From Diplonema papillatum (taxonomy: Eukaryota; Euglenozoa; Diplonemea; Diplonemida; Diplonemidae), in the NCBI GenBank assembly GCA_030068145.1, contig JAPJBO010000831.1, positions 37,493 to 101,492 on the forward strand: 64,000 bases of DNA. The letters are read 5' to 3'. The notes under the pieces were generated by a model that did not search any database, had not been told where the DNA came from, and worked only from the letters and a program-made list of their open reading frames with translations. A program made the position numbers and the translations under genes. Of this stretch, positions 7,708 to 60,566 are shown in pieces (position 1 is the first letter of the stretch; every line of letters begins with the position of its first letter).

Positions 7708-7795
7708 TCTTGGGAGAAATCTTAGTTTGAATCCTCAGACAGAACATTGCCTCTCATGCATGCTTGATGCTAGCTTTCAGTCTTCAAAAGGGTGT
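7708..7795. repeat. Hairpin-rich dispersed repeat, copy at 7.7 kb
   Basis: Contains AAATCTTAGTTTGAA, ATTGCCTCTCATGCATGCTT and TTGATGCTAGC. It lies about 85 bp upstream of the ATG of the PH/coiled-coil gene, so it may be in that gene's leader or promoter. Confidence 0.7.
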
Positions 7796-27700: not shown

Positions 27701-30700
27701 ATCCCCCCAAATAATAAAATCCTCACTCCTATGCTTGTGTCTGTCACTCTCGTCCTCCGCTCCTGCTCTGCTTGCCGCGCGCCGTATAGTTGGAGTAAAA
27801 GGTGAAGCCAGAAAGCTGTTAATCAGCAAAGCAAGCTACTTTGTTTCTCTGGACGGATTGGGAGCGGCAAACCTGTCGTTCGGATTATTATTAGTCTTCA
27901 AAGAAACAAGTTTCTTTTCCTACAAAAAAAAAAAGGACACCCCAAGGTCAGTTCCCCGTAGTTCCTCCGTAGTTCCCCTTGGCTATACCGACCACACCAA
28001 AATGCGCAGTTTTGTTGCCTTCAAAAGCGATGGCGTAAAAAATTAGTATGGCTGGTGTGGTCGGTGGGTCAGTTCCCCGTAGTTCCCCCGTAGTTCAACA
28101 AGGGGGGGAAATCTTAGTTTAACGTTTAGGCAGAGCACTGCCTCTCATGCATGGTTGATGCTAGCATCAAGTCTTCTTCGAGGAAGATGTCGTCTAGGAA
28201 AGGGCGTCTAGGAAACCGGGATATAAGGGCACCAAATTTGTTTTGAACCGGGATATCAGGGCACCAAATTTGTTTTGTACCCAAGATACTGGAGCCAAAA
28301 AATTCGGGGGGAAATCGAAGAAAGTTCAAAAGAAGTTCGAAAAAAGTTCGAATCTTTTGTTGGTGGTACCGTGCTTGCGCCCGTTGAATCTGGAAGAGCA
28401 TTAAGTCGTTGATGCGGTGCGTGGTGGTCTTGGTCTTATTGGTGTCGTAAAGCTTGCAGCCGTCACATTTGTAGCCGTGGGGTACGGACCATGCGCAGTG
28501 TTCGTCGAGGCATCCCTGCACGGTGTTGGCTTTGATCGACAGGATGGTGGCGTCTTGCTGCGCAAATTTTGAACGACTGAGTCCGCAGTGATCGCAACGC
28601 ATGGTTGTGGTGGTTTCGTGTGTGAAGCCTTCTATGTAGTCCTGCCGTTGGCCGGGGCAAAGTCTGTGCGCCAGATTTTCTTCCAACAACGCGGTGGTGC
28701 TGGCGCGAAGGGCTTCTCCTAAGTCGCACTGCTGTCCGTCGCCGAAGGGTCCACTGATACTCGCGAAGACGCGCAGAAGTGTATCCGGTGTGCGGGCGTT
28801 GCGTGTCCAGTTGAAGACGGCTGTGGTACATTCGCCCTTAATGTGGGTGGTGCAATTGTGATACGCGGCGACCTGCTGTGCTAGTACGGTGGCGGAGATC
28901 AGGTTTAAGGCTGCTTGGAGGTAGCAAGAGTTTGTCGTAGTAAAACGAGAGGTCTTCCACTTGGTACTGGCTGCGTCGGCGGCGATTGCGGCCGCAAGGG
29001 TGGCGGAAGCGACAAGGTTGGCGACTCTTTGCACTGGGCTGAAGTTATGGGTGGATTGGGACACCGCGTGTAGGGCGGTTTCGCGCTCGATCGTCGTAGT
29101 GGAACTGTCGTCCGAGCTGTTTGAACGGTCGTCTGGGGTGGTTGGAAGCTCGGCCGGGTCGAAGTTAATCGGTCTGTGCTTTCCGGCGTATTCTGGTTCG
29201 AGAATGCGCGGCTTGCCGCTTCTGTAGCGCGCTATGGAATAGCCGAGGAAAGGTTTGAGCTGGTCATGTAGGCGCGGAAGGCGCTGGAACTCTTCGGTTA
29301 GCCAGGCGTGCCAGGGTGGGTAGAGGACTCTTGGGCTGTGCCCGCGTTCCAGCATCGTGTAAACGTTTCGCTGGATTTCGACACGGAGATCCTGCCAATG
29401 GTTGGTCTGGCGGATTGCTCGTATGAGGGAGCCCTTGAAGATGCCACTAGCTTGGGCCCTGGGTGGTTTGGTGGTGTGTGAAGCGTGTACCGTGCGCTTT
29501 GGGGTGGATGCTGAGCCTTATGTGTGGAGGGTGCGGTGCCGCCGGCCGTTCTATTCGTATGCGCATACCCAGGAACACGATGTCGTCTTGGGCTGTAGTC
29601 GTATCTTTGTATGACATACGATATAGAGATTCCGGCGGCGGTTTGTTGTCCCATTGCAAAAAGTCGTCGATGTATCGCCACGTGTCTGCGTGTGCTTTGG
29701 CCTCCTCTGTCTTGCCTTCTGCTAGGAGCCCGTCGATGTAAAGGGCTTCTATGCAGTAGCAGTAGAGGTTAGCTAGGTCCGAGCTAGCATTGCCTCCCAT
29801 CGGGATTCCTTCTACTTGTCTGAGTATCTCGTCGCCCTGTTCTATGAATACGTTGTCGATGACGAATTCGAGTAGGGTTTTGATCTCCTCCCTCGAGTAG
29901 TTGCGGCTTGTATTGTTCGCTCCTTTTCCAAAATTGAACGTCTTCTTGCCCTGCTGTTTCGCGCCTCTCGTGAGAGATTTGTGTCCTCGTTTCTCCTCGT
30001 AGTCGTATGCCTCGTCTATCGTCTGCCCGACTCTGCGCTTCAGATCATCGTGCGGCAAATTCGTATACATGGTGTAGAAGTCGTGCGTGCCCGGCATCTT
30101 GAGACGTAGACGTATTTGGTGCTGCTTGATGTGTAGAGCGATGTCGTCTGGGCTTTCTGTGAAAAAGGCACGTTTGATGCCCGTCTGCCGCTGCCTGTGG
30201 CGGTCCTCCTCCTTCAGGGATCGCATAATTGCTTTGAGGAGACCGGACAGCTCGAGATGTGCGTTCGTCGTGGTGGCTTTCGGTTTCTGCTTTCGTCCGG
30301 GGGTCGTCTTGTTGCTTCGCTCCGCAGCCACGCCGGCTATCCAACGAAAGCTTGGCTCGGCCTTGTGGAGTTTGAGGCTGCCGTAAAGGTATGGTAAACT
30401 TCCGTGAGCTTGCAATTTGAAAGGGTCCAGTTGACGTTGGTGCTCCTGTTGCAACTGGGCTTTTGTAACCGCTTGTTTCTTGTAGGTTGTGTTCGACTGA
30501 AGTTGGTGTTGCAATGCTGTGGAGTATGCGGCCTTACAGCAGTAGCCGAAATCGTGCGTGGTTTTGTCGACGGGGAGGATGACGAGGTCTTCTTTGAGGT
30601 TCCGAAGCTCCTGAGATGCACTACTGCTGAGAGTTTCCTCGTCGGAAGGGGGCAAAGTGGAGAGACGTAGTGAGAGCTCGAGCTTAAGAGCGGCTTCGAA

Positions 30701-33700
30701 GTCGGTGGTGCTGCTACCGAGTGTGAAGTATTTGCTGATGTATTCATCTATGGCATCGTGCACGCCGGCTTCTAGTGAGTGGTGGTCTTGGTAGCATCGG
30801 TACTTCCGTCCGCGTTTGACCACCTCCGTGAGCCCTTTGTCTTTGGTGATGTCCGCCAGAAAGCCGATCGCGTGCCCGTCTAGGTTTCGGTCGGCGCGGT
30901 AGTGTCGGCAGGCACACTGGTCCGCGGGTTTCAGCTCCACTTTAGGCGCGAGTTTGCTGACTTCTGTGACGTTCTGCACGCGTAGGAAAAGCGGGGGGTT
31001 CATCCGGTACGTGATTTTGGTTCTGTCCAGAGTCTGCTGGCTGGGGCAGGCTTGACGTATGTGCGGCTGCTGCAGCAGGTCGTTGAGGTGGAGTCGGTGT
31101 ATGTGGTCGCTGCCGTGGGTGATGATAAGCCGTGCCGGTCCGCCGTCGTTCTTCTCGACCTTGGCTAGCGTGATCTCGCTTAGCCGCTCCTTCAAGTGGC
31201 TTTCGATCGTTGTGACCTTCTGTGGTAAGCCAGTCTTGGGGGCGTGGGCTATGAGCCAATTGAGCAAGCGACGGGCTCTCGGGCGGCCTATTCTCTGGTA
31301 TTCGTAGTTCTGGAGTTCGTCTTCACTGAGCGTCAGTAGCTGATGTAGCTGCTTGCGGATTGAGTATGCACGGCCTTGAATGGTCTGGTTGATCATGAGT
31401 TGACCGTTTTGTATCCAGGCCCAGACTGTGCTACAAGGTGCGGTGGGTGGTCTACTGCGCGGCTGGTTGGTCTTACGCTTCCGGTGTCGCTGCTGACGGT
31501 TTTGGTAAACCTTTGGGAGTTGTAGTAGGGCTGGAGGTGAGAGATCCACCAGTTTTCTCTTGGGAGAGCGAGACGTCTGAAGTTCTCGAGTGTCGCTTTC
31601 TCGTCTATCTTGATTTTCTCTATCGGCACCGTGAACAGCGGGTAATTGCGTTTGAGCATCGCGGAGGCGACCGGGGTGCCATTGCGCCTTGCGTACCAGT
31701 GCGAGGTCAGTCGCTCGCGGGCTGTTTTCTTAGTCTGTCCTACGTATCGTGGGCTGCCTCGCTCGTCTACCAGTGCGTATATGACGCCTTCGTCCGCGTA
31801 AGCAGGTTTGTCGGCGTCGGCCTCTTTCCAACCTCTGGACAGTTTGCGGTGGTATTTTGCGAAGAAGGTTTTTTCCGCCTTCTTTCGTTTGGCTTCATAT
31901 TCGTCCCAGAACTGCTTGCCGAAGTTATACTTCGGTTTCGTACGGAAACAGGTAAGAAACGGATTTTTGTGAAACTCGGCCCGTTGCACGTCCTGCGAGC
32001 TGATCGCGTTTTTGGTGATGGTGTGCTTCTGGTAGTCCTTTCCGCGCGGGGGCGTTTCTACCTTGCCGGCTGACCCGTTGAACTGTGGTAAACTGGTGCC
32101 GAACGGAGCTGCTTCGTCGGGACGGTAGTGCCAGTTGCCGTATCGTGGTTGGACTGGGGTTTGAGCGTGTCGGTGTGTCGGTTGTGGTATCGCGGACGAC
32201 GAGCTTTGTAGATCGAAACGTGTTCGTTTGCGCGGATGATGTTGACGAAGGAAGGGTAGTGGGATGGGGGATGGTGAAAGGGAAGGTTGCTCACATTTTC
32301 TTTTCAAAGTTCCTCCCGTTCCGCTGAGCTCGCGCGTGCTGGAAGCGGTGGTGGTGGTGGGTAGAACAGGAGAGTCGGGCCGTCGCTGGTGTTTGTCGCT
32401 AGTGGTTTGCAAGGGAGGTGGAGCGGGGGGCGGTGGTAATCTGTCGGAGACGTCTTGGTAGGGTGGTGTGGTTTGCAGGCGTTTGCGTATGGTGGCTTCC
32501 AAGTACGAGGGTAGCGGGGAGTTGTCGTCCGGTGTGCTGAGTGGTGGATGTACGCGTCGCGAGAAACCGGGGCTCCTCGTAGCGCCTAGGCTTGGTGTCG
32601 TGGACTTGGGTTGATCGATCGACGGGTCGCGGAGTACATGCGTCGGCGCCGGGGTGATTGGTGGGGCCTCGTTCGAGCTGTATGTATTCTCATGTTGGGT
32701 TAGGGACCGTGCACGAGGGCTCGTGCCGAGCTTGGTTTCGGTGGGTGTGGAGGGTCGGTAGTCGTATTCGTTCGGAAGCCGCCTTTGGTCTCGTGTGAGC
32801 GTTTTGTTTGCGGTATGGGGCGCAGAGCTCGTGGCGGTGGACGGAGAGGAGGTTGTGTCCGAAATATTATGGATGATGTGTTGCGGAGTGTAAAGCTCGA
32901 AGTCGGGTGGTTTTATGTGCTCCGGTTTGCGAGTTGGGTCGCGCTTGCTTCCGTCGAGGCGCGTGGAACTTTTAAGAGGACGATACGACATGTCAGTAAC
33001 CAATGGTGGGGTGTGGTACAGCTCTGGCGGAAGCAAAGAACTTCTGTAAGTGTTGGATGATGTAGGTGGTATCGACCGAGGGCGGTAGTCTTCTTCGGGT
33101 AGTGCTGGCGAGTGCGGCTTGGATAAAGGAGGGTTTGAATAGTCTGCCAGAAGCGACGGGACGCGCGGTTTGAGGTGGACTGGACTGGTTTTGTGGCGTT
33201 GAGGGTGGTAGGTTTCAGCCGCCGGTGCAGGGTATTGTAGTTGGTGTCGTGGTTGTGGGTAGAGGTCTACGTCGGGCGGCGTTAGGGAGCGCGGTTTGTG
33301 ATGGCGCATTGCTTTGCCGGCTTTCGACGGCGTTGTTTTGTGGTGCGGTTCGGGGTGGCATGGTAAGGGGTAGTAACTCTCTGCAGCAGTAGCAAGGGAG
33401 CATGGTGCGGAGTGGTCTGAGCGCTCCCCTGGCGAACGTTCGGTGGAGGAGATCTTGGGATGGTATGGTTGCGGGATGTAGTACTCTTCGTTGGGCGATC
33501 GGGGAGAGAGGCGGTGAACGAGTGTTTTGACGTCTTCTGGTGCAAGCGCAGTGAGGTGTGACTTGGCGTGGTAAGGCAGGGGGTAGTAATCTTCGGTCGT
33601 GGGCGCGCGGGAATATGGTGTGGTAGAGCGGTGTACGCGGCTCTTTGCGGGATGAGTGGTGTGGTGGGATTCAGAGAGGCAAGGACGAGGGATGTAGTCC

Positions 33701-36700
33701 TCGACGGAAGGTGAAACGGAGCGTAGTGTAGGGTGGTGTCGACGTCCGTTGCTGACTTCGGAAGGACTTGGTACGAAGTGCGGTCCGGGGGGGTATGACG
33801 GGCGTTAATAGTTATTTGTTGAAGGAGTTGATGACTGCGCGGTGTGGTTGTAAGGGAGTGCACGGTACGGTTCTGTGGTGGAAGCTGTGGAGTTGGCTTT
33901 GGACTTGTATGGTTGAGGGTAATAGAACTCTGTAAATCGTGTGGACTCGTTGGCAAGAGAATGTGAGCGGCGTGGTGAGGATGAGCATAGTTTTGTACTG
34001 TTGGCATGGCGTAGTTGGTGGGGGCGTACGTGCATGCAAGCCTTCGGGCAAACCTTGGGCGAAGGACTCGAATTGGTGTCATGCTGGCGGCGTCGTGCGG
34101 GACAGTTTGCCGTCGTTCGTGCACGGTTGGGCTTCCCGCCTGAGTGAGCTCGTGAAGTCGGGTCGGCGCCGTGCTTTCGAGCGAGGTGATGTCCAGGGGT
34201 GTTGCTTTGCGGTTTGTCGTTTGTAGCAAACTTGTTGTAGCGGCTCTTCGGTAGGTTTTTAGATGGATATAATCGGTCGCGGTTGGGGCAGCCACTAGGA
34301 CTGGAGGGTGAGTGGGAGGGAGTGGGAGGGAGGGGGTGACGTGAAAGCTCATTCGTGAAGAATGAACGTTAAACGCCGCGATGTTTCTTATCGCTGTAAG
34401 GAACTCAGAGTCCGGGCCCACATGTGCCGTGCCATGTGGGTAGTTTCGCATTTTAAATGCTAACGTAACAGGTATGTTATTTAAGGAGAAGGAACACCCC
34501 AACTCGCCGCTCAGGGACCCGAGTTGGATGACGATACGTTGTACGCCGATTTTTTTCTCCTTCGAAGTAGAAAAAGAGAGCATGGTGTTGGGAACCTCAG
34601 TACGGTCTTGTGATCGGCCCTCGCTACTGCCGTCTTTTGGCTCAGGTTTCAAACGTTAGGAACGAGGGGCTTGCTGTCATGCTCAGGGGAGGTTGTGGGA
34701 GGAATGGGCAGAAGCTTGGAAGCTGTATCAGGCGAACCATCGGTCCGTGTCCTCAACGGGTGCAGAGGCGCCGGGACCTCGCTAGCTGCTTTTAATGGGT
34801 TAGCTTCCTGGAGAGCTAGCTAGGAGAAACGGGAAGTTGTCCGAAGGTCTGCTACAAGATTGCGGGCTGCTGTTGGTTATTGAGGCGATAGAGGGCGTAG
34901 GTGAGGTGTTGAAGCGGTGCGGAGGAGGTAATCGTGGGAGTGACGGGCCGAGAATCTTGCGCGTTGTGCTGCCTGCCGGTAGAACAGCGCTGGCGCGTGT
35001 GCGTTGTAGACTTGCGGGTAGCTAGTGGAGAATGGTGGTGATTTTAACAAGAAGAGGGGAAAGGGAGTCGTGGTGGGCCGGTGGTATGTCGGAGTCGCGT
35101 AAGAACTGAGTAGCGCCGGACTATGATAGGCGCGGTGATTGTGTTAGAGACGGTGTGCCATGAGTGAGGAGGCGGAAGGCCTAGGCGGGAATCGGATGTC
35201 GTGAGCGTGTGCGAAGTGAAGGCAGGAGTAGTGTACGGTGGTTGCCGCGAGCGGAGCTGCGGCTACATGTGCGTTAAGGGCTGTCGTCGGTATTGGTCTC
35301 CGTGCGGGAAGTGTTCAACTAGAAAACTGTGATAAGGCGACGGTATATCTTGAAATACTTGCGTGCGGATGTGTTGTACGGAATCGGCGAAATGGTAATG
35401 CAAGCGGCGGTGCGTAAATAGTGTGGTGGTGGAAGGTCTGGCAGCGCGCTGCGGTAAGGCGACGATAGAACATGTAGGACTTGCGTGCGAATTTGATGTA
35501 CGCAATCGGCGAAATGGTAGTGCAAGCGGCGGTGCGCTAATAGCAGCGTGCTGTGGCGAGGCGACGATGGAACGTGTACGCCTTGCGAATGAATTTGATG
35601 CACGGAATCGGCGGAATGGCAGTGCAAGCGGCGGTGCGTCGAGAGTGCGGTGGCGGAAGGTTTGGCGGCGTGTATTCGAACGCTGAGTGTCGGGAGGATA
35701 AGGGGCGTTGATGACAATGGAAATGCTGAGTGGTATGGAGGGTCGTTGCGTTGACAAACGGCCCATAAGGTAGGAATGATGCAGGTGCGCGAGAGGCGGC
35801 GAACGCTTCGAATGACAGTGGAAGCCGGGATATCTTGCTAACTCGGCGGTTGCAATGTCGGAGCATCGTTTTCTGCTGGAGTCGGTTGGCGTCAAAGTAC
35901 AGGAATGCGCCGGTAGCATGCGTGGCTGCGTTTGTAAGTGCGGAAGGAGTAGGGAGTCTGTCGTCGGTATTGTGGTGTCGATAGGGCAGATGCGGAAAGT
36001 TGGATATGTAGGTAGCTGTTGGCGGCAATAGAAAGAGCACGGCGATGAAGGTGTGCGAAAGCGCGTGAGAGCGGCGGGTTTGTTGCGGGTACGTACGGTG
36101 ATGGACTTGCGCGTCGTGGCAGCTAAGCGGAGAAAAGAGCTGTAGAAGAAGATCTGTGCGTATGAAAGGGGTGCCTAGGTCGTTGGTGTGAGCGTTTAGC
36201 TTTGTTGTCAGCTCGGCGTAAGCGGAGGTGGCAGTAGATCGTATGCGGAGTGGTAAGAATCGAACGACTAGGCGAGGTTGGGACTGCTTGCTAAGCAGGC
36301 TGTCTTTCGTTGCGAGTCCGCTAGCGTCGGCAGTGTTTCTTTGCGTGAGATGAAAGTGTGGCGTTAAAAGCCGAAGCTCTTTTTGCTTGACCCAGCCCAC
36401 AGGTAGCAGCGTAGTGTGCCACAGTGCTGAGTACTTTTTTTAGAGTGAAAGTTCGCTTGAAACTCCGGGGTTTTAAAGTCTCCGGGTGACCTTCGTCGTT
36501 AAGGGAAGATATTCTTTGTGCTCTGAGTGTCGTAAGAGTGGTGGTTACACGAGGTAAGAGGATCGGTGGGTACCTTGGTCGTTGGTTATTGGTGGTTTCG
36601 GCCATTGTCCACATACCTTACTTACGGTAGGCCCTCCTCAGTATGGTGCCGCAGTAGGTGACTGTCTGTCTTCTTGGTACCGTCTGACCGTCTCTTTTCG

Positions 36701-38337
36701 TGTATTTGTGGTGCTGCTTATGGTTTGCGCAGGTTGAATATCCGTAACTATATCGTATTGCAATACGGGTGGGGTGCTACAATTAGCGTAGCAAGGAGTC
36801 GCGAATAGAAGTAAATAAAGAAAGAAAAAAAAATTTCTCGAGGGATTTTTAGGGGGTCCGCGGGCGAAGCCCGGGGGCACTTCTTTATAGTGTCGTTTCG
36901 TAAAGTCTCCTTAGGAAGTTTTCCCCCCTGGAACTGACACCGTGATGGCAGAGTGAACGGTGCACGCCTTCAGGGCTTGAAGACCCCGGTTCGAACCCGG
37001 TCGAGGACACTTTTCCGGTCGAAAATGATTTTTTCGGGGTTTGTTGGTTTTCGGGTCTAATGTGCCCGAAACTTGCGTTTTTTGCCGACTTTCTCAATAT
37101 CTCGCGGTTTTGGGTCACCTTGGGTAGTTTGAGTCAGCCTACCAGAACGTAGCATCGCCCATTTGCCTCACCAGAACTTTGCTTCGCCCGAACTTTGCTT
37201 TGCTTCGCCTGAACTTTGCTTTCACCAGAACTTAGCTTCATGCTTTGCTTTTTGCTTCACCAGAACTTAGCATCGCCCGAACTTTCCTTCATCAGGACTT
37301 ACCATCGCCCGAACTATGCTTTGCTTCGCCCGAACTTTGCCTTCACCAGAACCGGCACTTAGCTCACCAGAACTTAGCTTTGCTTCGCACGAACTTTGCT
37401 TTTCACCCGAACTATGCTTTGCTTCGCCCGAACTTTGCTTTCACCAGAACTTAGCCTCATGCTTTGCTTTGCCCGAACTTTGCTTCACCAGAAATTAGCA
37501 TCACCCGAACTTTGCTTTGCTTCGATCAGAACTTAGCATCGCCCGAACTATGCTTTGCTTCGCCCGAACTTTGCTTCATCAGAACTTAGCATCGCCCGAA
37601 CTTTGCTTTGCTTCGAACGAACTTTGCTTTCAAGAATTAGCCTCACCAGAACTTTGCTCGCCCGAACTATGCTTTCACCAGAGCTTAGCTTCACCAGAAC
37701 TTCGCTTCGCCAGAACGTTAGCTTCGCCCGAACTTTACTGTTTCCCGAATTTTAACTGCTGCCTCTAGTCTCGCTGGGCGCCGGTCTTTACCGGCGCAAA
37801 TGTACTTCCTTGACCGCACTACCCTGAACCCAAATCCTGGACGTGGTTGCAGGTGGCAAATTGGCAAATGATCACGATCAAAAGGTCCTACTCGGGCGAT
37901 TCTCCTATGTGGCTACAACTTAAAAGCCATACCGAGTACGTCGCGTTCGCTTGGTCGCCCAGCTTCACGAGGGTCCCGATCTGGAGGATGGACCTCCATC
38001 CTTTGTCGGTCTCCTTCATGCCCGCCTCCTTCAAATCGGACGCTTTGGGCCCGGCGTCCCCTACGAGGTGCAGTAGAAATGCATTCCCAGATGCAAAGGC
38101 GTCTTCTCGTTGCTTTGCTGAGGCTGTGGCCTTGACGCCGACCTTCGCACCAAAGTCGTGCTTGTACTGGTGCCGGCTGGAAGACCACGTGTGGAGAACG
38201 ACGAGAAAGAAGAACACGAACAGCAACAGCATGCCGGTCAGCTGCTGCTGGTTCAAGCTGCGCACGAACCGCGTCCACCGCTCGACGAGAGCCGCGGCCA
38301 GGCCGTCATCTTCCCGCTTGCTCTTCAGGATTTGCAT
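15323..38337 (-). CDS. Soluble calcium-activated nucleotidase (apyrase), four exons over 23 kb
   Basis: Proposed join: 38337-37933, 23222-23053, 22733-22145, 15394-15323 (1236 bp, 411 residues), close to the ~400 residues of animal CANT1 proteins. Exon 1 gives a type II membrane anchor (LTGMLLLFVFFFLVVLHTW, about residues 36-54) and the start of the propeller (GWRSILQIGTLV, ATYS). Exon 2 gives VDW, GMELS and LYTCDDKTGIIFEL. Exon 3 gives WILAGGDG, KCKWMATKDGRLYTGSIGKEW, PGYVVHEAVQWS, WVFLPFRVSQEPY and LGFADFKFLP. Exon 4 gives VVMDDVPIPGDFKFEGIAI. Each join restores a family motif in frame: TYS|VDW, YP-R|WIL, DGE|VVMDD. The family is Ca2+-dependent and hydrolyses UDP, GDP and other nucleotides in the endoplasmic reticulum or Golgi, or when secreted. 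Introns 1 and 3 hold retroelements in the same orientation. All introns are GT-AG and all downstream exons begin AG|GT. Confidence 0.8.
15606..15632. repeat. (AG)n microsatellite at the 3' end of LINE-B
   Basis: About 13 AG units. It marks the 3' side of LINE-B on the minus strand, about 65 bp after the ORF2 stop. Confidence 0.9.
15697..20046 (-). CDS. LINE-B ORF2: AP-like endonuclease plus reverse transcriptase
   Basis: 1449 residues, ATG at 20046-20044, TAG at 15699-15697, apparently intact. Residues ~30-290 are an APE-type endonuclease: VTINVTS, ADVICLQETKL, IVVAGDLNTDP, SRIDLVLTNE, FPTHKAIR. The RT lies at about residues 600-880: LRPITVSSVVYRLW, QHGFRKGHSCDD, ALDFAKCFDRVP (motif A), NGILQGCPISVVL (motif B) and SFADDLYLLS (catalytic Asp pair). 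A C-terminal CCHC motif follows (CEFCDGG, LLHYFWEC), as in many non-LTR elements; the C-terminus is basic and Pro/Ala-rich. No RNase H or restriction-like endonuclease was recognised. The protein would nick the target and reverse-transcribe its own RNA. The whole element lies in apyrase intron 3, in sense orientation. I cannot assign the LINE clade. Confidence 0.9.
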   Translation of the reverse strand: MVSPQLYHASYASHNLTLTTSSGSGPRLPPLRVVTINVTSLLKNVLLLCGIVADVICLQETKLTSTGQKKIRMALKECAALDVWQPFFGSCCEGRKCGNDVPSQITGGSAGVAILVRKGLPACVVSPFDVVEERAYEAARFLHVRVATGSGKGALHVVSLYGHCGHSARIEREKLVEGVLWGMRRRLGAVPIVVAGDLNTDPLNSPALRFALRNGWTDCAELHAKSLSRPPEHTCYHGEPSRIDLVLTNEIASSALGNVETFEAGFPTHKAIRAELHLTAFQQLNAVFRFPRAIPGSGLTDRTDTAALKAVVAKYRLADPCPRGLEDSQRVDFLWLRISRAAEDYLLQKSKIEGNLAAYRGRGERRRLSTQRVSARPSPEGAGADTAPLKRARCLLGRMREYSAARAKWEDMSSAPCPLSLLLKGQWDKIRSFQSFILQRTDGKCALPLIPPSAKAARGLSHTISDVCQSLAQTTLNSRYLEIARCQRELRNPLGKESFAWVKKEAPPTFYFTNGRDGRLTANLVEVDATVRRKWDPVLRMYAGKKEPEFAPFLREYGDFIAQHPCQLGPITADRLRSIARKKGVQSSCGVDGWRMREVAALPDTILEGFAAVLNEVEETGLWPDGVLDALVTLIPKGEGDDPLKLRPITVSSVVYRLWASVRLQEVLVWQEQWIHESQHGFRKGHSCDDVVMDIALSIEESLINGTPLHGIALDFAKCFDRVPQGLVLDLVEALGLHERVLAPLRHVYKYLRRRFKYPLGVGDEFKVTNGILQGCPISVVLINALLSVLSKALVSRARVSPKSFADDLYLLSRLAKLLQEGIEVTAIFGSLTGLALNEGKCASFSTSEKGPRLEVGGKAVKSVKTVKVLGVPLGTEGPVDNGRSDATVEAAARLEASPLKPRTKFRVMQTIAASAHYGAAYCANSAGGFANNSVLRTALSACLIPRSNRAKSPLATLTLVAKAHLCDPACASGYSSLRTAAKQYQKERFRLRMDALLVSGADASLKGPVGLISNLLREIRFLPAKRHSFELLSFEGATVPFSGKETLHFVREGLRLRAWRYLTTQRQGYSGIERGVDVRLLNRLWQNRATEDRLSFAIRKCIAGAVYSREWCNRKWGTDDGVCEFCDGGTPGTLLHYFWECPGPGGRWVNLRCRLDVAGVAAQNMPLCLSTRGIPPIGTPPVLVERVQKLIGTISIEMAQAQRNIATTRPWELASAAAGRYDVELARDSRELLTKQIGTRFAATLVYWLRNLRWVNTPPLPTTGVELALDFEAYTRSKLPGETFAEKGLQIGYLTRAINDLSFADTGASAFPGKWRQGVCSLRCLGAPAMPGFTHRPRFAAGRRTEAMLNGIVAVCSKDSWNDAKPVYPQDVAFAQWKLKFPIKVLAAAVGRAVARKKRARSVTRRRSPARRARPPARAPAAAPTPVPPLTVAEPQPAARLRSDLRPP
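20040..21449 (-). CDS. LINE-B ORF1 with C-terminal Cys/His zinc-binding module
   Basis: ATG at 21449-21447 (MVLDGWGVPK), TGA at 20042-20040, 469 residues. The frame is open to about 21630, so a non-AUG or upstream start could add ~57 residues. The body has alternating alpha/beta character (VRIMAKKAAEAEG, SVRVPVEDVPKLLRSSGKAG, GVIGGAKTGVFGIRTT) without a recognised RRM. A basic linker (GQKRSRASDE) precedes a Cys/His cluster near the C-terminus: CRHANW, FLCEVCCKSM, QCAHGPCEAVVCHACWAKL. This resembles a RING/PHD-like zinc site rather than the usual CCHC knuckle. It probably packages element RNA. Its stop overlaps the ORF2 start in ATGGTGA, suggesting termination-reinitiation coupling. Confidence 0.8.
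   Translation of the reverse strand: MVLDGWGVPKVESGVEMGCKKGGVLVAANTEDAEYAWGAALDLIGVCPGAKVAVVCTVPWAESARHLVVLSDGNHQDVWAKYYNVTPPTVSCKTVAPGQPTTQVCLFQVRAAYVHATTWETAMKAGQSVRIMAKKAAEAEGLRMDWSSVFTKVHRRQGVCEVSVRVPVEDVPKLLRSSGKAGTFWKAMSFVNGTDTLPAVWVSDCALEEARQIASRTPNTFGVIGGAKTGVFGIRTTPEHVAATESAVGKKLSKRQRRGDKYIVTTACPAEHPSDLLAACAAAEWNVEPVGSFKRRGDTVCVVIADQGPPAPVLYRLDRASISIRKYDRSIDARQKKGFTTQCQRVKINLPREFLASLQERPEPVPGQKRSRASDETTTQDKVARVDTADNMATDCRHANWQEAYENDKAFLCEVCCKSMQVGQARRQCAHGPCEAVVCHACWAKLQDAPPTPPSPAQAPAVDPADSKW
21650..21829 (-). repeat. SINE-like repeat, copy 2 of 2
   Basis: Matches 6308-6487 (GCCGCCCACGTCAAATTTTG, GCAGCGGCTGCCAAAA). It lies directly upstream of LINE-B ORF1. Its A-rich end on the minus strand runs into TAAAACAAAACTACG at the LINE-B 5' side. 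Confidence 0.75.
22145..22733 (-). other. Apyrase exon 3 (main catalytic part)
   Basis: 589 bp, from W-I-L-A-G-G-D-G to FNIDGE, donor GCGAG|GTACCC. Reading straight on would end after VPFCVT at 22126-22124 and lose the conserved KFEGI tail. Confidence 0.85.
22734..23052 (-). other. Apyrase intron 2 (319 bp)
   Basis: GTATGC donor and CCAACACAG acceptor. Splicing gives CCA CG|G TGG ATA TTG = P-R-W-I-L. It contains a dispersed repeat copy at 22953-23015. Confidence 0.85.
22953..23015 (+). repeat. Dispersed repeat, copy 2 of 2
   Basis: Near-identical to 4222-4282 (AGTAAGCGGTCGGTTTTTTG). It lies within apyrase intron 2. Confidence 0.8.
23053..23222 (-). other. Apyrase exon 2
   Basis: 170 bp, begins GTC GAC TGG (VDW) and ends CCA CG|GTATGC. 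It encodes the GMELS and DDKTG motifs of the family. Confidence 0.85.
23325..23380 (+). repeat. GTAGTTCCC dispersed repeat
   Basis: TGTGGTCGGTGGGCCAGTTC followed by CCCGTAGTTCCCTCGTAGTT. Related copies lie at 28050-28100 and, partly, 27945-27980. Confidence 0.75.
23437..23770. repeat. ~31-bp minisatellite, forward array
   Basis: About ten degenerate units of TTCCCTTATAGCCACGAAAA-AAGAATTTTA. The same unit appears inverted at 24025-24180, 24395-24475 and 24860-24885, so the region can fold into long hairpins. Confidence 0.9.
24025..24480. repeat. ~31-bp minisatellite, inverted arrays
   Basis: Units of GTGGCTATAAGGGAATAAAA in two blocks (24025-24180 and 24395-24475), reverse complement of the 23.4-23.8 kb array. 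Confidence 0.9.
24722..24763. repeat. Poly(A) tract of about 42 bases
   Basis: Uninterrupted A run. Another A/T-tract pair occurs at 24842-24900. Confidence 0.95.
25377..26462 (+). pseudogene. Cys/His-rich hypothetical protein interrupted by an in-frame TGA
   Basis: The plus frame from 25377 runs to TGA at 25881-25883 and then on in the same frame to a stop at 26460-26462. Protein character changes little across the stop: VCHEHQKVKCGV before it, and SAWCCEVHH, FCRQHRRTRCATCK, ECCRNGHL, ACRRVHC after it. Together they form one Cys/His cluster that looks zinc-binding. A Lys/Arg-rich tail follows. There is no ATG at the start of the open frame; the ATG at about 25506 is a possible start. I do not recognise the family. 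It may be a decayed transposon protein, a gene with a nonsense mutation or, less likely, a recoded UGA. It lies inside apyrase intron 1 on the opposite strand. Confidence 0.35.
26470..28050. other. Intronic stretch without supported gene
   Basis: Only short frames on both strands. Near its end are the GTAGTTCCC repeats (27945-27980 and 28050-28100). Confidence 0.55.
28106..28200. repeat. Hairpin-rich dispersed repeat, best copy
   Basis: Three successive perfect or near-perfect hairpins: AGGCAG-AGCA-CTGCCT, the 16-base palindrome TTGATGCTAGCATCAA (one base interrupted by context) and TCTTC-TTCGAG-GAAGA. It follows the 3' end of Penelope-like copy 1. Confidence 0.8.
28217..28285. repeat. Two tandem ~33-bp units at the 3' end of Penelope-like copy 1
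   Basis: AACCGGGATAT-A/C-AGGGCACC followed by AAATTTGTTTTG, twice in a row. Confidence 0.85.
28345..29470 (-). CDS. Penelope-like copy 1, C-terminal part: RT thumb tail plus USP-type ubiquitin peptidase domain
   Basis: The frame continues the RT of 29447-31549 after a one-base shift: ASGIFKGSLIRAIRQTNHWQ is shared with copy 2, so this was one polyprotein. Counting from the Met at 29355, residues 142-150 read NSCYLQAAL, the Cys box of USP (C19) deubiquitinases, with the catalytic Cys codon at 28926-28924. GQQCDLGEAL follows, matching the family's GQQDAxEFL segment. The zinc-finger insert has MRCDHCGLS and YKCDGCKLYDTNKTKT, then INDLMLFQIQR, matching the lP-x-x-L-x-x-x-x-R strand after the fingers. 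The usual His box is absent: after about residue 332 the frame enters AT-rich, non-family sequence to TAA at 28128-28126. The domain may be 3'-truncated here, or the His half lies in lost sequence. USP enzymes remove ubiquitin; in an element this could protect its proteins or alter host chromatin, which is inference. Confidence 0.75.
29447..31549 (-). CDS. Penelope-like copy 1, reverse transcriptase with CxC linker
   Basis: 700 residues in this frame. The N-terminal part (STVWAWIQNGQL, LRKQLHQLLTL-like) aligns with the linker of copy 3. A CxC motif occurs in DQCACRHYRADRN. RT landmarks: VILPVDKTTHDFGY, PYLYGSLKLHK, FYTMYTNLP (motif A), EGIPMGGNASSDLANLY (motif B), TWRYIDDFLQW (catalytic Asp pair) and DDIVFLGMRI. 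This order matches the group with N-terminal GIY-YIG (Naiad/Chlamys type), RTs related to telomerase RT. The frame breaks twice relative to the one-ORF copy 3: at ~31.5 kb against the GIY-YIG frame and at ~29.46 kb against the USP frame, both single-base shifts, so this copy looks recently inactivated. It lies in sense orientation in apyrase intron 1. Confidence 0.9.
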   Translation of the reverse strand: MDLSPPALLQLPKVYQNRQQRHRKRKTNQPRSRPPTAPCSTVWAWIQNGQLMINQTIQGRAYSIRKQLHQLLTLSEDELQNYEYQRIGRPRARRLLNWLIAHAPKTGLPQKVTTIESHLKERLSEITLAKVEKNDGGPARLIITHGSDHIHRLHLNDLLQQPHIRQACPSQQTLDRTKITYRMNPPLFLRVQNVTEVSKLAPKVELKPADQCACRHYRADRNLDGHAIGFLADITKDKGLTEVVKRGRKYRCYQDHHSLEAGVHDAIDEYISKYFTLGSSTTDFEAALKLELSLRLSTLPPSDEETLSSSASQELRNLKEDLVILPVDKTTHDFGYCCKAAYSTALQHQLQSNTTYKKQAVTKAQLQQEHQRQLDPFKLQAHGSLPYLYGSLKLHKAEPSFRWIAGVAAERSNKTTPGRKQKPKATTTNAHLELSGLLKAIMRSLKEEDRHRQRQTGIKRAFFTESPDDIALHIKQHQIRLRLKMPGTHDFYTMYTNLPHDDLKRRVGQTIDEAYDYEEKRGHKSLTRGAKQQGKKTFNFGKGANNTSRNYSREEIKTLLEFVIDNVFIEQGDEILRQVEGIPMGGNASSDLANLYCYCIEALYIDGLLAEGKTEEAKAHADTWRYIDDFLQWDNKPPPESLYRMSYKDTTTAQDDIVFLGMRIRIERPAAPHPPHIRLSIHPKAHGTRFTHHQTTQGPS
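31393..33309 (-). CDS. Penelope-like copy 1, N-terminal Pro-rich repeats and GIY-YIG endonuclease
   Basis: 638 residues. Residues ~508-600 are a GIY-YIG nuclease: GVIYALVDERGSPRYVGQTK, ARERLTSHW, then LPRENWWISHLQPYYN with the conserved Glu. Upstream is a long Pro/Thr/Ser/His-rich region with degenerate repeats of a P-x-D/E-x-Y-x-P pattern, which extends out of frame to about 34.3 kb. The nuclease lies before the RT, the permuted order. It would nick target DNA for priming. The true frame leaves this one at about 31.5 kb and continues in the RT frame. The start codon is uncertain because the repeat region upstream is shifted. Confidence 0.85.
   Translation of the reverse strand: MRHHKPRSLTPPDVDLYPQPRHQLQYPAPAAETYHPQRHKTSPVHLKPRVPSLLADYSNPPLSKPHSPALPEEDYRPRSIPPTSSNTYRSSLLPPELYHTPPLVTDMSYRPLKSSTRLDGSKRDPTRKPEHIKPPDFELYTPQHIIHNISDTTSSPSTATSSAPHTANKTLTRDQRRLPNEYDYRPSTPTETKLGTSPRARSLTQHENTYSSNEAPPITPAPTHVLRDPSIDQPKSTTPSLGATRSPGFSRRVHPPLSTPDDNSPLPSYLEATIRKRLQTTPPYQDVSDRLPPPPAPPPLQTTSDKHQRRPDSPVLPTTTTASSTRELSGTGGTLKRKCEQPSLSPSPIPLPFLRQHHPRKRTRFDLQSSSSAIPQPTHRHAQTPVQPRYGNWHYRPDEAAPFGTSLPQFNGSAGKVETPPRGKDYQKHTITKNAISSQDVQRAEFHKNPFLTCFRTKPKYNFGKQFWDEYEAKRKKAEKTFFAKYHRKLSRGWKEADADKPAYADEGVIYALVDERGSPRYVGQTKKTARERLTSHWYARRNGTPVASAMLKRNYPLFTVPIEKIKIDEKATLENFRRLALPRENWWISHLQPYYNSQRFTKTVSSDTGSVRPTSRAVDHPPHLVAQSGPGYKTVNS
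33310..34330 (-). repeat. Coding-like degenerate tandem repeats upstream of Penelope-like copy 1
   Basis: On the minus strand, units of roughly 110-150 bp repeatedly encode a Tyr-Tyr-x-x-x-Pro-Tyr-His-like peptide in shifting frames (plus-strand TAGTA followed by TGGTA/GGGG blocks). It looks like an expanded N-terminal region of the element that has lost its frame. Confidence 0.55.
34330..36900. other. Intronic stretch without supported gene
   Basis: Pro/Thr/His-rich open frames on the minus strand reflect base composition. It contains the ~110-bp tandem repeat at 35377-35660 and a copy of the TTTAGAGTGAAAGTTCGCTTG repeat at 36437-36495. Confidence 0.5.
35377..35660. repeat. Tandem repeat, ~2.5 units of ~105-120 bp
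   Basis: Each unit starts TG(T/C)ACG(G/C)AATCGGCG and contains TGCAAGCGGCGGTGCG, then GGCGACGAT(A/G)GAAC and GCGAATTTGA or GAATGAATTTGA. Confidence 0.85.
36935..37010 (+). other. tRNA-like sequence, possible tRNA-derived SINE head
   Basis: TGGCAGAGTGAACGG fits an RNA polymerase III A box and GGTTCGAACCC is a perfect B box, spaced as in a tRNA. The T arm pairs 4 of 5, but the acceptor stem pairs badly and the anticodon loop lacks U33. I read it as a tRNA-derived fragment, not a functional tRNA. Confidence 0.4.
37140..37745. repeat. Degenerate minisatellite of ~18-22-bp units
   Basis: Many repeats of TTCACCAGAACTTAGC and ATCGCCCGAACTTTGCTTTG in mixed order. It gives false open frames rich in Ala/Arg/Thr. 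Confidence 0.9.
37933..38337 (-). other. Apyrase exon 1 (start codon, membrane anchor)
   Basis: ATG at 38337-38335 (MQILKSKRE). It ends TAC TCG|GTATGG, phase 0. It carries the single transmembrane segment and the first propeller strand. An upstream in-frame Met exists but gives a longer, Cys/Arg-rich leader without support. Confidence 0.7.
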
Positions 38338-38829: not shown

Positions 38830-40432
38830 GTACTCTGCAGTGCGCCACTTGTGCGTCGATCGTCGATGTTGTCACACACGGAGCGGTGGTCGCACGCTCA
38901 GGAGGAGCCTCCTCCGCTCTCGGACGATGTGTTGAATCTCTGCGCTGGATCTCGACGCGAAGGTCCTGCCAGTGGTTGGTCTGTCGAATTGCCCTGATGA
39001 GAGACCCTTTGAAAATGCCGCTGGCCTGTGATTTGGGGGCGGTGGTCTGGTAGTGTGTGAAACGTGTGCCGAAGGTTTTTGGGTGTACGCCTAGTCTTAT
39101 GTGTGGCGGGTGTGGTGCTGCGGGTCGTTCAATACGTATACGTATTCCAAGGAAGACGATGTCGTCGCGTGCTGCTGTCGTCTCCTTGTACTCCATACGA
39201 TAGAGTGATTGAGGTGGTGGTTTGCAGTCCCATTGGAGGAAGTCATCAATGAAACGCCATGTGTCGACGTGGGCTTTGGCTTCGTCGACTTTGCCTTCTG
39301 CGAGCAGTCCGTCTATGTACTCGGACTCCACACTGTAGCAATACAAGTTGGCCAGGTCCGAACTTGCATTGCCTCCCATCGGAATACCTTCCGTTTGGCG
39401 TAGTATGGTTTCGTCTTGCTCGATGTAGGCATTGTCGATGACAAAGTTGAGGAGGGCTTTGAGCTCTTCTTTTGTATAGTTTCGGCTGGTGTTGTTCGCC
39501 CCTTTGCCGAAACTAAAAGTCTTTTTGCCCTGTTGCTTAGCTCCTCGGGTGAGGTGGTTGTTGCCGTGCTTCTCCTCGTATTCATAAGCTTCGTCGACAG
39601 CTGAACCAACCCTGCGCTTGAGATCTGCGTGCGGTAGGTTGGTGTACATTGTCGTGAAGTCGTGGTCGGTGGGTGTTTTGTATCTCAGATGGGTTTGACG
39701 CTGTTTGACGTTGAGGGCTATGTCGTCGGGGCTCTCGGTGAAGAAGACCTTCTTTATTCCCGTCTGTCGTTGGTTCCGTCGGTCCTTTTCCTTTATCGTC
39801 CGCATAATCGCCTTCAGCAGACCGGACAGCTCTAGGTGGGCGTTCGTAGTAGTTGCTTTCGGTTTCTGCTTGCGCGCAGCTGCCTTGTTGTCTTTCCTTA
39901 CGATGTCTGTCGCTACGCCCGCGATCCACCGGAAACTCGGTTCGGCTTTATGCAATTTGAGACTGCCGTAGAGGTATGGTAGTCCGCCTTGTGCTTGTAA
40001 TTTGAAAGGCTCGAGCTGCTGCTTGTGTTGTTGTTGAAGCTGCGTCTTCGTTATATTTTCCTTCTTGTATGTGGCGCTGGTTTGTATTTGCTCCCGTAGT
40101 GTGTTTGTGTAGTACGCCTTGCAACAAAACCCGAAGTCGTGTGTGGTTTTGTCTACGGGCAGTATCACCAAGTCTTGTTTGAGTCTCTTGAGTTCTTGCG
40201 ATGCGATACGGCTCAAAGTTTCTTCGTCAGATGGTGGTAAGGTGGCTAGGCGTCCCGAAAGTTCGTCCTTCAACGCGGTTCCAAAAGCGGTAGCGTTTGG
40301 TTCCGACGGGTAGTATTTTTCTACGTATTCGTCTATGGAAGTGTGTAGTCCCTCTTCGAGTGCGTGATGGTCCTGGTAGCAGCGGTATTTTCGTCCGCGT
40401 TTGATACACTCAGTGAGGCCTTTGTCTTGTGT
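38830..40432 (-). pseudogene. Penelope-like copy 2, 5'-truncated reverse transcriptase
   Basis: One open frame of ~530 codons matching copy 1 from QDKGLTECIKRGRKYRCYQD to ASGIFKGSLIRAIRQTNHWQ. It includes PVDKTTHDFGF, MYTNLPHADLKRR, EGIPMGGNASSDLANLY and TWRFIDDFLQW, so the RT core is complete. It starts abruptly at ~40432, missing the CxC linker and GIY-YIG domain, as expected of 5' truncation during target-primed reverse transcription. After VEIQR it diverges from copy 1 and no USP domain can be seen. It lies about 490 bp upstream of the apyrase start codon in the same orientation. The open frame runs on to 38486 through unrelated sequence. Confidence 0.85.
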
Positions 40433-40434
40433 TT

Positions 40435-42960: not shown

Positions 42961-43067
42961 GGCTCAAATCTGCGATGTGCAAAATGTGATTTAAATTCCG
43001 CTCCTTCGAGGGGTCGCTCGGAGCCGTTGCTCCCGGACCTTGGCGCAGCGCCCGAACGAAGGAGGGA

Positions 43068-43142
43068 GGAAAATCTTAGTTTCGTGTTCAGGCGCTACTT
43101 GCCTCTCATGTGTTTGAAGCTAGCATCAAGTCTTCTTCGCGG
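43068..43142. repeat. Hairpin-rich dispersed repeat, copy at 43.1 kb
   Basis: AAAATCTTAGTTTCGTGTTC, TTGCCTCTCATGTGTTTGAA and GCTAGCATCAAGTCTTCTTC. It lies ~110 bp upstream of the RHS-like pseudogene on the minus strand. GTTGTCGACAAC follows at 43176. Confidence 0.75.
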
Positions 43143-43352
43143 ATTGCAGAGTCTTATTTTCTGTTCTTTTCTTTCTTTCGTTGTCGACAACTTCTTTTTT
43201 CTCCTTCTACTTTCTTTACCATGGTTTTTTTGGACTTTCTCGATGTTCGTTTGGAGGGGGTGAAGCACTGAACGGTAGCTAGCCTCGCCAACCGCGTCTC
43301 CTTCGCGACCTCAGAGGACGCGGAAGCGCCGCCTCCTAGTCGGCGGCCGGCC

Positions 43353-48799: not shown

Positions 48800-51672
48800 G
48801 TTCACGACTCGAATAAGTCGGTCCATCCGGTCCTGAAAGACCGTGTGGCAACGTAAGGTTCGTGGCGCTTTTTTGCGCAGTCGAGCGTAGTTCGTCTTTA
48901 TGTGTACTGCTACGTCATCGACCGACTCCACGACGAAGAAATGGTAATCGTGGTTAACTTTCTTTTTGTTCCTTTTACGGCTATTCTCTCGTTTTAGCGT
49001 CTTTTGCTCTCTATTGCTGGGAATACCGGTATTCCTGGACTTTTGGTGCTGAAGGAAGGGATGAATCCGTTCACTTCACCCCCCACGTGGCGCTCGTTTC
49101 TCGGAACGACGCGTTCTTCGAAACGACGTATCCCAGTTTGCGAAAACGCCGCTTCGTCCTTGCTTCGGAGCGTTGCTAGCACCAGCTTCAGCAAACCGGA
49201 GGCTTCTTGGTGTGCAGGGGTTGTGGATGCACGTGTCTTCATTCGTTTCTTGTCGCGGCCTTTTTCGTCTCGGTCCTTCTGTTCGTCTTTCTTCTCAACG
49301 TTTCCTTTCTCCGACACGCCGGCAATGTACCGCATCCGTGGTTCGGGTTTGTGGAGCTTCGGGATGCCGTAAAGGTACGGTAGGTTGTCGGCGTGTACGA
49401 ACTTGTGTGACTTGTTGAAGTCACGGTGTCGTTCGAGCACGTCATCAATCGACTCGCCAACTTCCTGGTACGTTGAGCTCTGTTGTAATTCGTCCCGTAA
49501 GAGCTCCTTGTATTTTTCCTTGCAGATAAACCCGAAGTCATGGGACGTCTTATCTACAGGGAGAAACACGAGGTGCTCCTGGAGCTTCTTCAGGGTGCGT
49601 AAGGCGTCTCGGAGTTGAGGTTCGTCGGTGTGCGCGTTGAGAGTTCCAAGGACGGCGTCGAACTCTTCGACCAGAGTCGTTGAAAATCTGGTCTTCTCGT
49701 CCTCGCTCGCCTTCGGGAAATTCGAGTTCACGAATTCTTCGACGTCGTGTCTTATCGAGTCGTACATAGTCATCGGACTACTCGCGACCCGGTATTTTCG
49801 TCCTTTTCGAAAAAGTGAAAGGAGGGCTTCGTCAGTCTTCAGATCCGTTGCAAGTCCTAAAGCGTGTCCACCAAGATCCGGGCGGTGTGGTGTCATATGC
49901 TGCATGCATGGACAAACCGAACCTGAGCTAGTCGGTTGATTCGCTTCGTAACTTACTTCGGTGACGTTGCTGACGAGGGTTACCAAAGGTGGCTTCAGGC
50001 GGTTGCTCACCATGAGGTTTTTGAGGACGGCCGGGTTGGGGCACGTTTCGCGAACCCGTGCGCGTGACAGGACGCCGGCAATTGCTGTCCGGTCTTGTGC
50101 CGGGTGATGATGCGTCAGCTTGAAATACCGTCGTGGGGGGGCCGCCGGTTTCTCGGTTCTGTTGCGGATGCGCGCACTGAGGAGTCGTTCAAGGATTCGT
50201 ACTTTGTCTGTGACGTCTTTTCCTTGAACGAAGGTTCTCAGCCACGTGCGTAGGCGGAGGGCGCGATTGGGATGCCATGTTGACATGTCGTAGGTTCCCA
50301 GTCGGTCCTGTGGGAGTGTCAACAGGTGGTCCAACTGTTTCCTCAACCCAGAACAGAAGCCCGGGGAGGTGTCAATGTGGAGTTCGTCGTTTTCCATGCG
50401 GTGCCAGACGCTGCCGTCGGTGCGTCGTTTGCGGAGGCGTTGCGGTGGACGTTGCCTCCTCTTCTTCTTTGCAGCCTTGTTGTTGACCCTCTCTCCCTGT
50501 CGCCGATTCGTCATGTTCAATGGCGGGTTTAGCCATTTGATCCAAAAATCTTCGATTGGGAGAGCCACGCGCGCGAAGTCAGCGGGCTGTACGTACAGCC
50601 GTTCCGGAACATTCTGTATCGGACACGCGTAGAGCTTCCGGCCTCGCTTTCGTAATTGTTGCGATACACGGTTGCCCTTTGAGTTCCGATTTTCCCAGTG
50701 CTTGCTGTTTCGCACCTCGGCCGTCTTCGACGTCTGACCCACGTAGAGGACGGTGCCCCCTTCGTTCAGAAGTACGTAGATCACTCCCGTCGTGCTGTCG
50801 GCGACGTCGCTTCGGTCGGTTCCGCATTTGTTCCGCCCATTCGACACTTTTGTGCCGTATCGCTTCCAGAAGATTTCGATCGCGCTTTTTCTTCGGCTTC
50901 CGTGATCGTCGTCGTCGTCGTCAGGGTGGCGGCGCGTGTGGACAAAAGCGGCGAGGAAACGAGTGTCAGATTTGGGCCGGTTTGTTTTTTGTTTTCGCCG
51001 TTCTTTTCTGTTGGCGCGTGCACTTTTATTGTTTTTTTGGTTTTTTTGGTTTTTTTCGTTTTGTTTTTTTGCCTCAGAGTCACGTGGTCGTTCTTCCGAT
51101 TTTTCTTGGCGGCGTTTTCGTGCTTGTGCTCTGGGTTTTTCTTTTTGCGGCCTCTTTTGTTCGCGCTCCTTTTGTCGATCGTTGTGAACCGGGTGGCTAG
51201 TCGTTCCACGGTTCCTCTGTTCTGGGGCTGCTTGGGGTCTGGAAAGACCTTTCTCGCAGGGCTTCTTTGTTTTGGGGGCCGCTTGGGGTCTGGGGTGACC
51301 TTTGTCGCAGCGTTTCTCTTCCTTTCCCTCTCTCCGTGTCGCTGGGAAACGACCAACAAGTTCAGGTCCTTCCTGGGAGTGGCGCTGTCGGAAAATAAGG
51401 CATTCGTCATCTGTCCGAATCGGATATCCGACGACTACCTTAGCGTCTGTTCCGTCGAGTTCATCATCAAAGTAGTTAACTTTCATGTTTTCGGACTCGG
51501 TGGTGGTAGACGACGCAGCACTCCGCCTCGAATGGTTATGCTTCCTAGGCACTTTCAATGGCGATTTAGAGACGGGTGTGGGATTTTTTACTTTGGGTCT
51601 ATCAACGTGTCGGGCTGACAGGTCCAAAAGCGGTCCTGCGGCGTTTTTTAGGGCCACACGGCAAGGGGCCAT
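48800..51672 (-). pseudogene. Penelope-like copy 3: GIY-YIG and RT N-terminus in one frame, RT core lost
   Basis: ATG at 51672; the frame is open for 892 codons to 48994. After a Lys/Arg-rich leader, GIY-YIG is at about residues 300-390: TGVIYVLLNEGGTVLYVGQT and ALPIEDFWIKWLNPP. A CxC motif follows (SVCPCMQHMTPHRPDLGGHA), then RT N-terminal motifs: VFLPVDKTSHDFGF, PYLYGIPKLHKPEPRMRYIA and ASGLLKLVLATLRSKD. Near QTGIRR (~49.13 kb) about 170 bp of foreign sequence interrupts it. The next RT piece, ESVDDVAVHIKTNYARLRKK, resumes in another frame at ~48.93 kb, after which homology ends at ~48.8 kb. Motifs A, B and C are missing. It is diverged from copies 1 and 2, so it is a separate family. It shows that GIY-YIG and RT are encoded in one frame ancestrally. 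Confidence 0.85.
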
Positions 51673-56378: not shown

Positions 56379-56571
56379 TGGAGCCTTGGCGTCCAGCAGA
56401 CACAAAATCAGGCCCAAATTAGCCCGAATTACCACCGCGGGGGCTTGTACACCCCCCAGGCATCTTGTTAAGAACCATCCATCCATCCATCAGCCGGCTG
56501 ACCCCCCCCCCCCCCCCCGGGTCGAGCTAATTTATTCCTGGGTGAGCTTTTTTTCAGGCTTTTTTTCCGAC

Positions 56572-56692: not shown

Positions 56693-56757
56693 AATTTGGG
56701 GTTTGCCAAATTTTCCAGATTTTCACCATTTGTGTGTGATTTTTACAATTTTTGTGT

Positions 56758-60561: not shown

Positions 60562-60566
60562 GTTAC

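Follow-up and report, generated by a model that had tools for sequence, protein, structure and literature searches.

The stretch of DNA analysed here, hereafter the window, comprises 64,000 nt of the genome of the marine protist Diplonema papillatum (GCA_030068145.1, contig JAPJBO010000831.1), and all window coordinates are positions within it. It contains a Penelope-like element (PLE), copy 1, in which a ubiquitin-specific protease (USP, peptidase family C19) domain follows the reverse transcriptase (RT). Comparison with sibling copies showed that copy 1, broken at its 3' end, belongs to a large group of PLEs predicted to encode a GIY-YIG endonuclease, a CxC linker, the RT, a variable linker and a complete USP, with or without C2H2-like fingers. 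At the level of sequence, this supports the structural claim of an earlier note on this DNA, that a PLE with an N-terminal GIY-YIG endonuclease carries a USP domain after its RT. Taken together, the data are best explained by a selected, integral USP that is presumably active and most likely acts in cis, a composite reading regarded as on balance probable.

Organisation of the broken window copy

The body of copy 1 lies on the minus strand at 28353..35542, where it is 98.6% identical over 7,216 columns to a sibling at locus L031 (G000:C1280); the upper limit is the start of the retrieved L031 sequence. The earlier note had placed the RT and USP of the element at 28345-31549. DNA homology to L031 extends from 35542 down to 28353 and no further, the reading frame is lost shortly before, and recognisable USP sequence ends at approximately 28369. 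Unrelated sequence (28094..28352, no strand assigned) replaces the 3' part of the element beyond the breakpoint at 28353, where L031 continues with the rest of the USP, the His box (AGHYVIH), WTLLDG and two C2H2-like fingers. A short dispersed repeat is present at 28094-28202, 4614-4713 and, in part, at 7712-7785 and 43063-43143; one of its copies borders the broken end.

All domains of copy 1 are encoded on the minus strand. The stop-to-stop frame P0003 (31396..33804), equal in length to its L031 counterpart and nearly the same in its letters, contains a Pro/Tyr-rich N-terminal part and the GIY-YIG endonuclease (31531..31788; P0003 residues 673-758), which matched Pfam PF01541 with an E value of 0.012 and 16.4 bits (cut-off 22.6). 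The RT core occupies 29462..31018 in frame P0002, with a CxC linker (CAC) near 30910. It was recognised from the motifs DFYTMY, GIPMGGNAS and RYIDDF, located by eye, and from tblastn matches to two further PLE copies in the window, copies 2 and 3. The remaining parts lie in P0001, a minus-strand frame of 463 amino acids at 28126-29517: the RT thumb or C-terminal extension (29173..29478, residues 14-115), which in the window copy is in a different frame from the RT; the variable linker between RT and USP (28951..29172, residues 116-189); and the front half of the USP (28369..28950). The USP frame had been given as 28126-29355; it is real and its true extent is greater.

The USP motifs reported after the RT are present in P0001 in the order of C19 peptidases, namely NSCYLQAAL (Cys box), GQQCDLGEAL (QQCD box), the zinc pairs CDHC and CDGC, a K/T-rich stretch and INDLMLFQIQR. 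Residues 194-395 matched positions 6-174 of the 254 in the Pfam UCH profile (PF00443) with an E value of 2.9e-4 and 21.0 bits, below the curated cut-off of 23.9; the L031 domain scored 34.6 bits, above it. The low score of copy 1 may be attributed to its being broken: the half with the His box is lost, and the full domain is found in siblings. Given the loss of homology to L031 at 28353, and of the frame ahead of that point, the part of P0001 below approximately 28369 (residues after about 383) is out-of-frame or foreign sequence and not USP. The USP of P0001 is 43% identical over 193 columns to that of P0004, a GenBank protein of D. papillatum considered below.

USP-bearing relatives in the genome

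Copy 1 and its relatives form a window clade, W. A genome search with P0001 yielded 92 scored matches of 2,511 candidates. Most of these spanned the thumb of the RT, the linker and the USP as a unit, and identities, the window itself excepted, were 50-97%. Of 719 candidates obtained with the RT frame P0002, 59 RT loci (63 rows) were scored. A USP match lay directly behind the RT in 53 of the 59, and in the same phase in 52 of these 53, the exception being the window copy; the RT contained a stop in four of the 52. The other six loci (L034-L039) possess USP-homologous sequence by tblastn, which matched the whole query in L036 and L037, pieces of it in L034, L035 and L039, and its first part only in L038. 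A genome-wide check for copies ending at the RT thus found none among the 59 scored window-clade loci, all of which continue into USP sequence. Stop-free frames of at least 2,000 amino acids contained 25 of the 59 RT loci; L032 (2,210 amino acids) and L033 (2,663) each have a single frame that comprises GIY-YIG, the RT, the full USP and a pair of C2H2-like fingers, with UCH E values of 8.9e-14 and 1.1e-9, respectively. Copy 2 (38941..40433, minus strand) is an RT fragment of a W sister subfamily, broken at 38941 before the USP and 95.8% identical to L029, whose RT continues into USP.

Families A and B were recovered by a UCH profile search of the assembly (271.4 Mb, 2,910 contigs), in which 149 matches were scored of 935 candidates. 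Many were equal-scoring and in frames of 1562 or 1585 amino acids, and 54 of the rows were B-like. Eight of twelve retrieved loci (L009-L014, L019 and L020) consist of a single stop-free frame of 1562-1652 amino acids that matches the window GIY-YIG and RT and bears USP boxes; Pfam was run on three of these. L018, L015 and L016 are 5'-truncated copies with the USP kept. As these loci were located via the USP, they do not represent an unbiased count. The A protein (1499 amino acids from the ATG) and the B protein (1485) are 67% identical, with UCH E values of 1.5e-20 (A) and 5.7e-23 (B). P0005, a GenBank protein of D. papillatum, is 100% identical across 95% of the L009 frame and is named 'putative ubiquitin carboxyl-terminal hydrolase 16', a label that GenBank applies to members of both families and that the present assignment corrects. 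Two other GenBank models, P0008 and P0011, combine fragments of PLEs with host genes (Ribosomal RNA-processing protein 12 and a magnesium/proton exchanger) and are probably annotation chimeras or insertions into genes. The UCH search also returned three equal-scoring partial matches (profile 132-254) in frames of 334 amino acids at G000:C287, C1461 and C1783; one of them, L017, matched no PLE query, and these loci may be a duplicated piece of a host USP or another repeat.

Copy 3 (48836..50949, minus strand) belongs to a third clade, C. It comprises GIY-YIG and RT fragments and breaks off within the RT. Residues 1-610 of its query, P0012, are 99-100% identical to C-clade copies, e.g. C21, which has the USP in frame. 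Of 658 candidates for P0012, 68 loci (69 rows) were scored, and in 35 the frame measured at least 1,400 amino acids. Some of the loci were evenly spaced in tandem, every 5,726 bases in C510 and every 5,850 in C61 and C2819. Four other loci were read past the match, of which C21, C271 and C510 continue into the USP and C977 breaks in the RT. L044 (1,513 amino acids) and L045 (1,448) matched UCH with E values of 1.3e-16 and 3.8e-18, and GIY-YIG above the cut-off with 1.2e-5 and 5.5e-6. Because siblings of copies 1, 2 and 3 carry the USP, all three window PLEs derive from families with USP-bearing members. In total, at least 214 matches were scored across the three lineages, fragments included (54 B-like, 92 with P0001 and 68 with P0012).

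The assignment to PLEs rests on several features. The GIY-YIG domain preceded the RT within a single protein and scored above the PF01541 cut-off in L044 (25.9 bits), L045 (27.0), L032 (25.3) and L011 (22.9); scores below it were obtained for L009 (22.4), L020 (22.3) and L033 (15.2) as for the window copy, each ahead of the RT. A CxC motif between endonuclease and RT is a criterion for PLEs with an N-terminal endonuclease. CPC or CAC was present there in six of 16 frames (L009, L011, L028, L029, L032 and L033), the other ten starting further on or being matched elsewhere; the motif is CPC in clade C and CAC in the window. A fold search with a model of a relative's RT, itself not reliable, returned telomerase RTs, and nothing was found in BFVD with this model under an E value of 0.001.

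In Pfam scans of nine relatives' frames, the UCH profile scored 61-84 bits in A, B and C and 35-52 bits in W relatives; the match found in the window copy is therefore above the cut-off in its relatives. The Cys and His boxes were intact in all 13 of the longest frames, which span three clades, and the third catalytic residue was Asp or Asn by eye. The model of the domain had the USP fold, with structures of USP12, USP46 and USP1 high in the fold lists and USPL1, solved with SUMO, also among the entries. A PDB sequence search with the full family A USP returned 108 distinct sequences at E <= 1; among the 60 listed nearly all were USPs, and two were bacterial TssM deubiquitinases. A chance match of motifs is ruled out by the profile matches and the fold search. 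PDB sequence searches with P0001, P0002 and the RT profile A3 gave no USP or RT match. When the RT and USP of the window were joined as a protein query, nothing was found at E <= 0.01 and even P0004 was missed, the limit on candidates making this search uninformative. An IMG/VR scan with the RT alignment gave 48 pattern matches and zero relatives, NCBIfam gave nothing useful on four proteins, and Rfam detected no family, the hammerhead included, at the gathering threshold in L009, L011, L018 and L020.

Descent, selection and mobility

The earlier note had assigned the USP to the element on the strength of the segment ASGIFKGSLIRAIRQTNHWQ, shared with copy 2. This segment is indeed common to copy 2 (38903-39052), where it is in frame with the RT. 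Copies 1 and 2 cease to be homologous at 29369 and 38943, respectively, before the USP is reached, so that copy 2 by itself could not establish the USP as part of the element. This divergence is what would be seen if a host USP gene or USP fragment had landed behind a PLE by chance, but single frames with GIY-YIG, RT and full USP occur at many genomic places, and the order of RT, linker and USP in one frame recurs across three clades. The PLE USPs also fell on one side of seven host USPs in a tree, with support (86/88) that is not strong. A chance neighbourhood is exceedingly improbable, and a neighbouring host USP gene is refuted by the genome-wide RT-USP copies.

The host sequences were the eight best-scoring UCH loci, from which the long-branched host_L007 was omitted in the seven-host tree; with fewer PLE rows and all eight, support was 71/81. 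Identity between clades is 33-41% in the RT and 14-23% in the USP, and a finger motif (GLR.H....C) behind the USP is common to A/B and W. The tree favours a single fusion of the USP to a PLE, a reading qualified by the modest support and by the meeting of long branches. P0004 (DIPPA_23746, 811 amino acids) contains a complete USP that nests inside the W-clade PLE USPs, without an RT; it may be a USP recaptured by the host, or may belong to a different element.

Ratios of nonsynonymous to synonymous substitution (dN/dS) were determined by the Nei-Gojobori method, excluding rows of 15-27 codons at truncated ends. Between A and B the ratio was 0.12 for the USP, 0.09 for the endonuclease, 0.05-0.08 for the RT, 0.22-0.59 for the linker, depending on where it was cut, and 0.32-0.39 for the tail. 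The pair L027/L033 gave 0.14 (USP), 0.05 (RT), 0.30 (linker) and 0.35 (tail) at dS 0.83-1.9; L032/L033 gave 0.21, 0.17 and 0.28 for USP, RT and linker; L044/L045 gave 0.11, 0.08 and 0.53. Close A pairs gave 0.26-0.28 for the USP and 0.46-0.72 for the linker, for which the range within clades was recorded as 0.26-0.72. The USP was below the linker in every within-clade pair with a value, and the contrast between USP and tail fails in close pairs. These data show the predicted USP to be integral to the element and under purifying selection. A complete deubiquitinase domain is thereby added to the PLE class. Its retention under selection in three diverged lineages implies that the ubiquitin system is important in the life of these elements.

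Full copies are 99.6-99.9% (A) and 99.95-99.98% (B) identical, with different flanks and variable 5' ends. Partial tandem units are present: in L020, positions 238-714, upstream, repeat the element's own 3' end at 5732-6194. Likewise, at 36438..36829 (minus strand), upstream of the copy 1 body, the window holds the 3'-end sequence of a sibling element, a unit resembling a pseudo-long terminal repeat (LTR) that is 99.7% identical over 392 bases to L031 8213-8604, behind the L031 USP frame. The 3' ends of A and B terminate in CAACGACCCCCC and several copies sit in runs of C; no empty poly-C insertion site was found among the loci examined.

Possible roles of the protease and known systems

The USP is predicted to be catalytically active, since the Cys and His boxes are kept with Asp or Asn in the third place. 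The likeliest role, still tentative at somewhat less than even chance, is that it works in cis on the element's own ribonucleoprotein (RNP). The USP would ride on the RT/endonuclease protein bound to its own RNA and would remove ubiquitin from that RNP, shielding it from proteasomal degradation in the interval from translation to target-primed reverse transcription. The fusion of such a domain to the RT in several PLE families suggests that these elements interfere with the host protein-tagging system.

A target-site role follows closely and is possible, if less likely: where GIY-YIG has cut, the USP would strip ubiquitin from histones or from proteins of the damage response, allowing reverse transcription to start or keeping the nick from being repaired beforehand. 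USP12, USP46 and USP1, prominent in the fold lists, act on histones, PCNA and FANCD2, and the C2H2-like fingers after the USP in two of the three clades could bind nucleic acid. The Ginger paper proposes that OTU and Ulp1 domains are connected with DNA repair (PMC2836005). It is doubtful, though conceivable, that one fusion to an ancestral euglenozoan PLE RT made the USP a required catalytic step of retrotransposition, in which ubiquitin carried by chromatin or by repair factors would be edited where the target is nicked; if true, these would be the first class of retroelements to couple target-primed reverse transcription to a deubiquitinase of their own.

Several observations weigh against a selected, active USP acting in cis. 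The AlphaFold2 model of the USP is of middling confidence (pLDDT 57.7, pTM 0.66), and the third catalytic residue of L032 is apparently Asn, which is allowed in USPs. The USP evolves faster than the RT (0.05-0.17 within clades); between clades dS is saturated, rendering the ratios meaningless (one USP value was 0.59), and saturation is also approached by many dS values overall. In close A pairs, the constraint on the tail that follows the USP (0.00-0.17, with few changes) equals or exceeds that on the USP itself. Eight equal-scoring clade C loci (G000:C150, C667, C1582, C1646, C2153, C2233, C2318 and C2436) match residues 1-506 only, in frames of 609 amino acids that stop inside the RT, and are perhaps a short, non-autonomous or dead subfamily. 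Some GenBank models of families A and B (P0006, with 7 member sequences, and P0009) are without most of the USP, representing either deleted copies or invented introns.

The low identity of the USP between clades and the apparent Asn of L032 would also suit a fold selected without catalysis, as a ubiquitin- or RNP-binding module, but the retention of both boxes in 13 of 13 frames speaks for an enzyme, and this alternative is improbable. Equally small is the chance that the USP processes the element's own polyprotein, in the manner of retroviral proteases, or cuts another ubiquitin-like protein. Single frames of up to 2,663 amino acids among those read, and USPL1 in the fold rows, are compatible with it; against it, no ubiquitin or ubiquitin-like domain was found at E <= 1 in the nine Pfam-scanned frames, and USPs require a ubiquitin fold ahead of the cleaved bond. 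Action in cis remains the preferred reading.

PLEs with an N-terminal endonuclease were reportedly described by Craig et al. in 2021 as the Naiad and Chlamys groups. These reportedly resemble the present elements in having GIY-YIG before the RT, a CxC linker, partial tandem units and no hammerhead (none by Rfam in four loci here), and differ in that the elements here have a USP after the RT and, in two clades, C-terminal C2H2-like fingers. To our knowledge, the PLEs described so far possess only endonuclease and RT, and none is known to carry a USP. The cellular C19 group of USP12, USP46 and USP1 shares the fold, the Cys and His boxes and the zinc pairs; its members are cellular genes of about 20% identity with no RT.

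Ubiquitin/SUMO-protease domains in transposons are already known. The nematode non-LTR retrotransposons NeSL and Utopia likewise have a protease of this type in a retroelement protein, theirs being an Ulp1-like cysteine protease, N-terminal and in another retroelement class (PMC4640811). Ginger1, Helitron and Mutator transposons carry OTU or Ulp1, and one Trichomonas transposase a C19 domain; these are deubiquitinase-type domains, but in DNA transposons with no RT and with one C19 protein named (PMC2836005). The giant Gypsy-like Burro retroelements encode MATH/TRAF, BIR and other ubiquitination-linked domains, are of the LTR class and have no USP named in the portion available (PMC6431247). 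The D. papillatum genome paper, whose figure of about 280 Mb agrees with the size of the assembly searched here, lists LINE-1, SLACS, R2, jockey, TATE, MULE and Helitron proteins, and 'ubiquitin' has 0 occurrences in its main text (PMC10161547). Searches of a library of open-licence papers yielded no account of a USP in a PLE, nor in any other retroelement, and to that extent a USP in a PLE is new. The USP cysteine offers a single-residue test of a proposal advanced for OTU and Ulp1 domains, namely that transposition involves the ubiquitin pathway.

Two further observations concern the surroundings of these elements. The flanks that surround PLE copies in L014 and L020 (CAGCCGGCTGA poly-C ... 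poly-C CAGGCTATTTTCACTG) enclose a different insert at 56490-61943 of the window; the C-run repeat may be a landing site for several elements. Tyr/Pro-rich repeats of the YxPxPY type lie ahead of GIY-YIG at 31900-33804 (minus strand) in the window and in the N-terminal parts of L032 and L033, and in L033 more than 1,200 amino acids precede the endonuclease.

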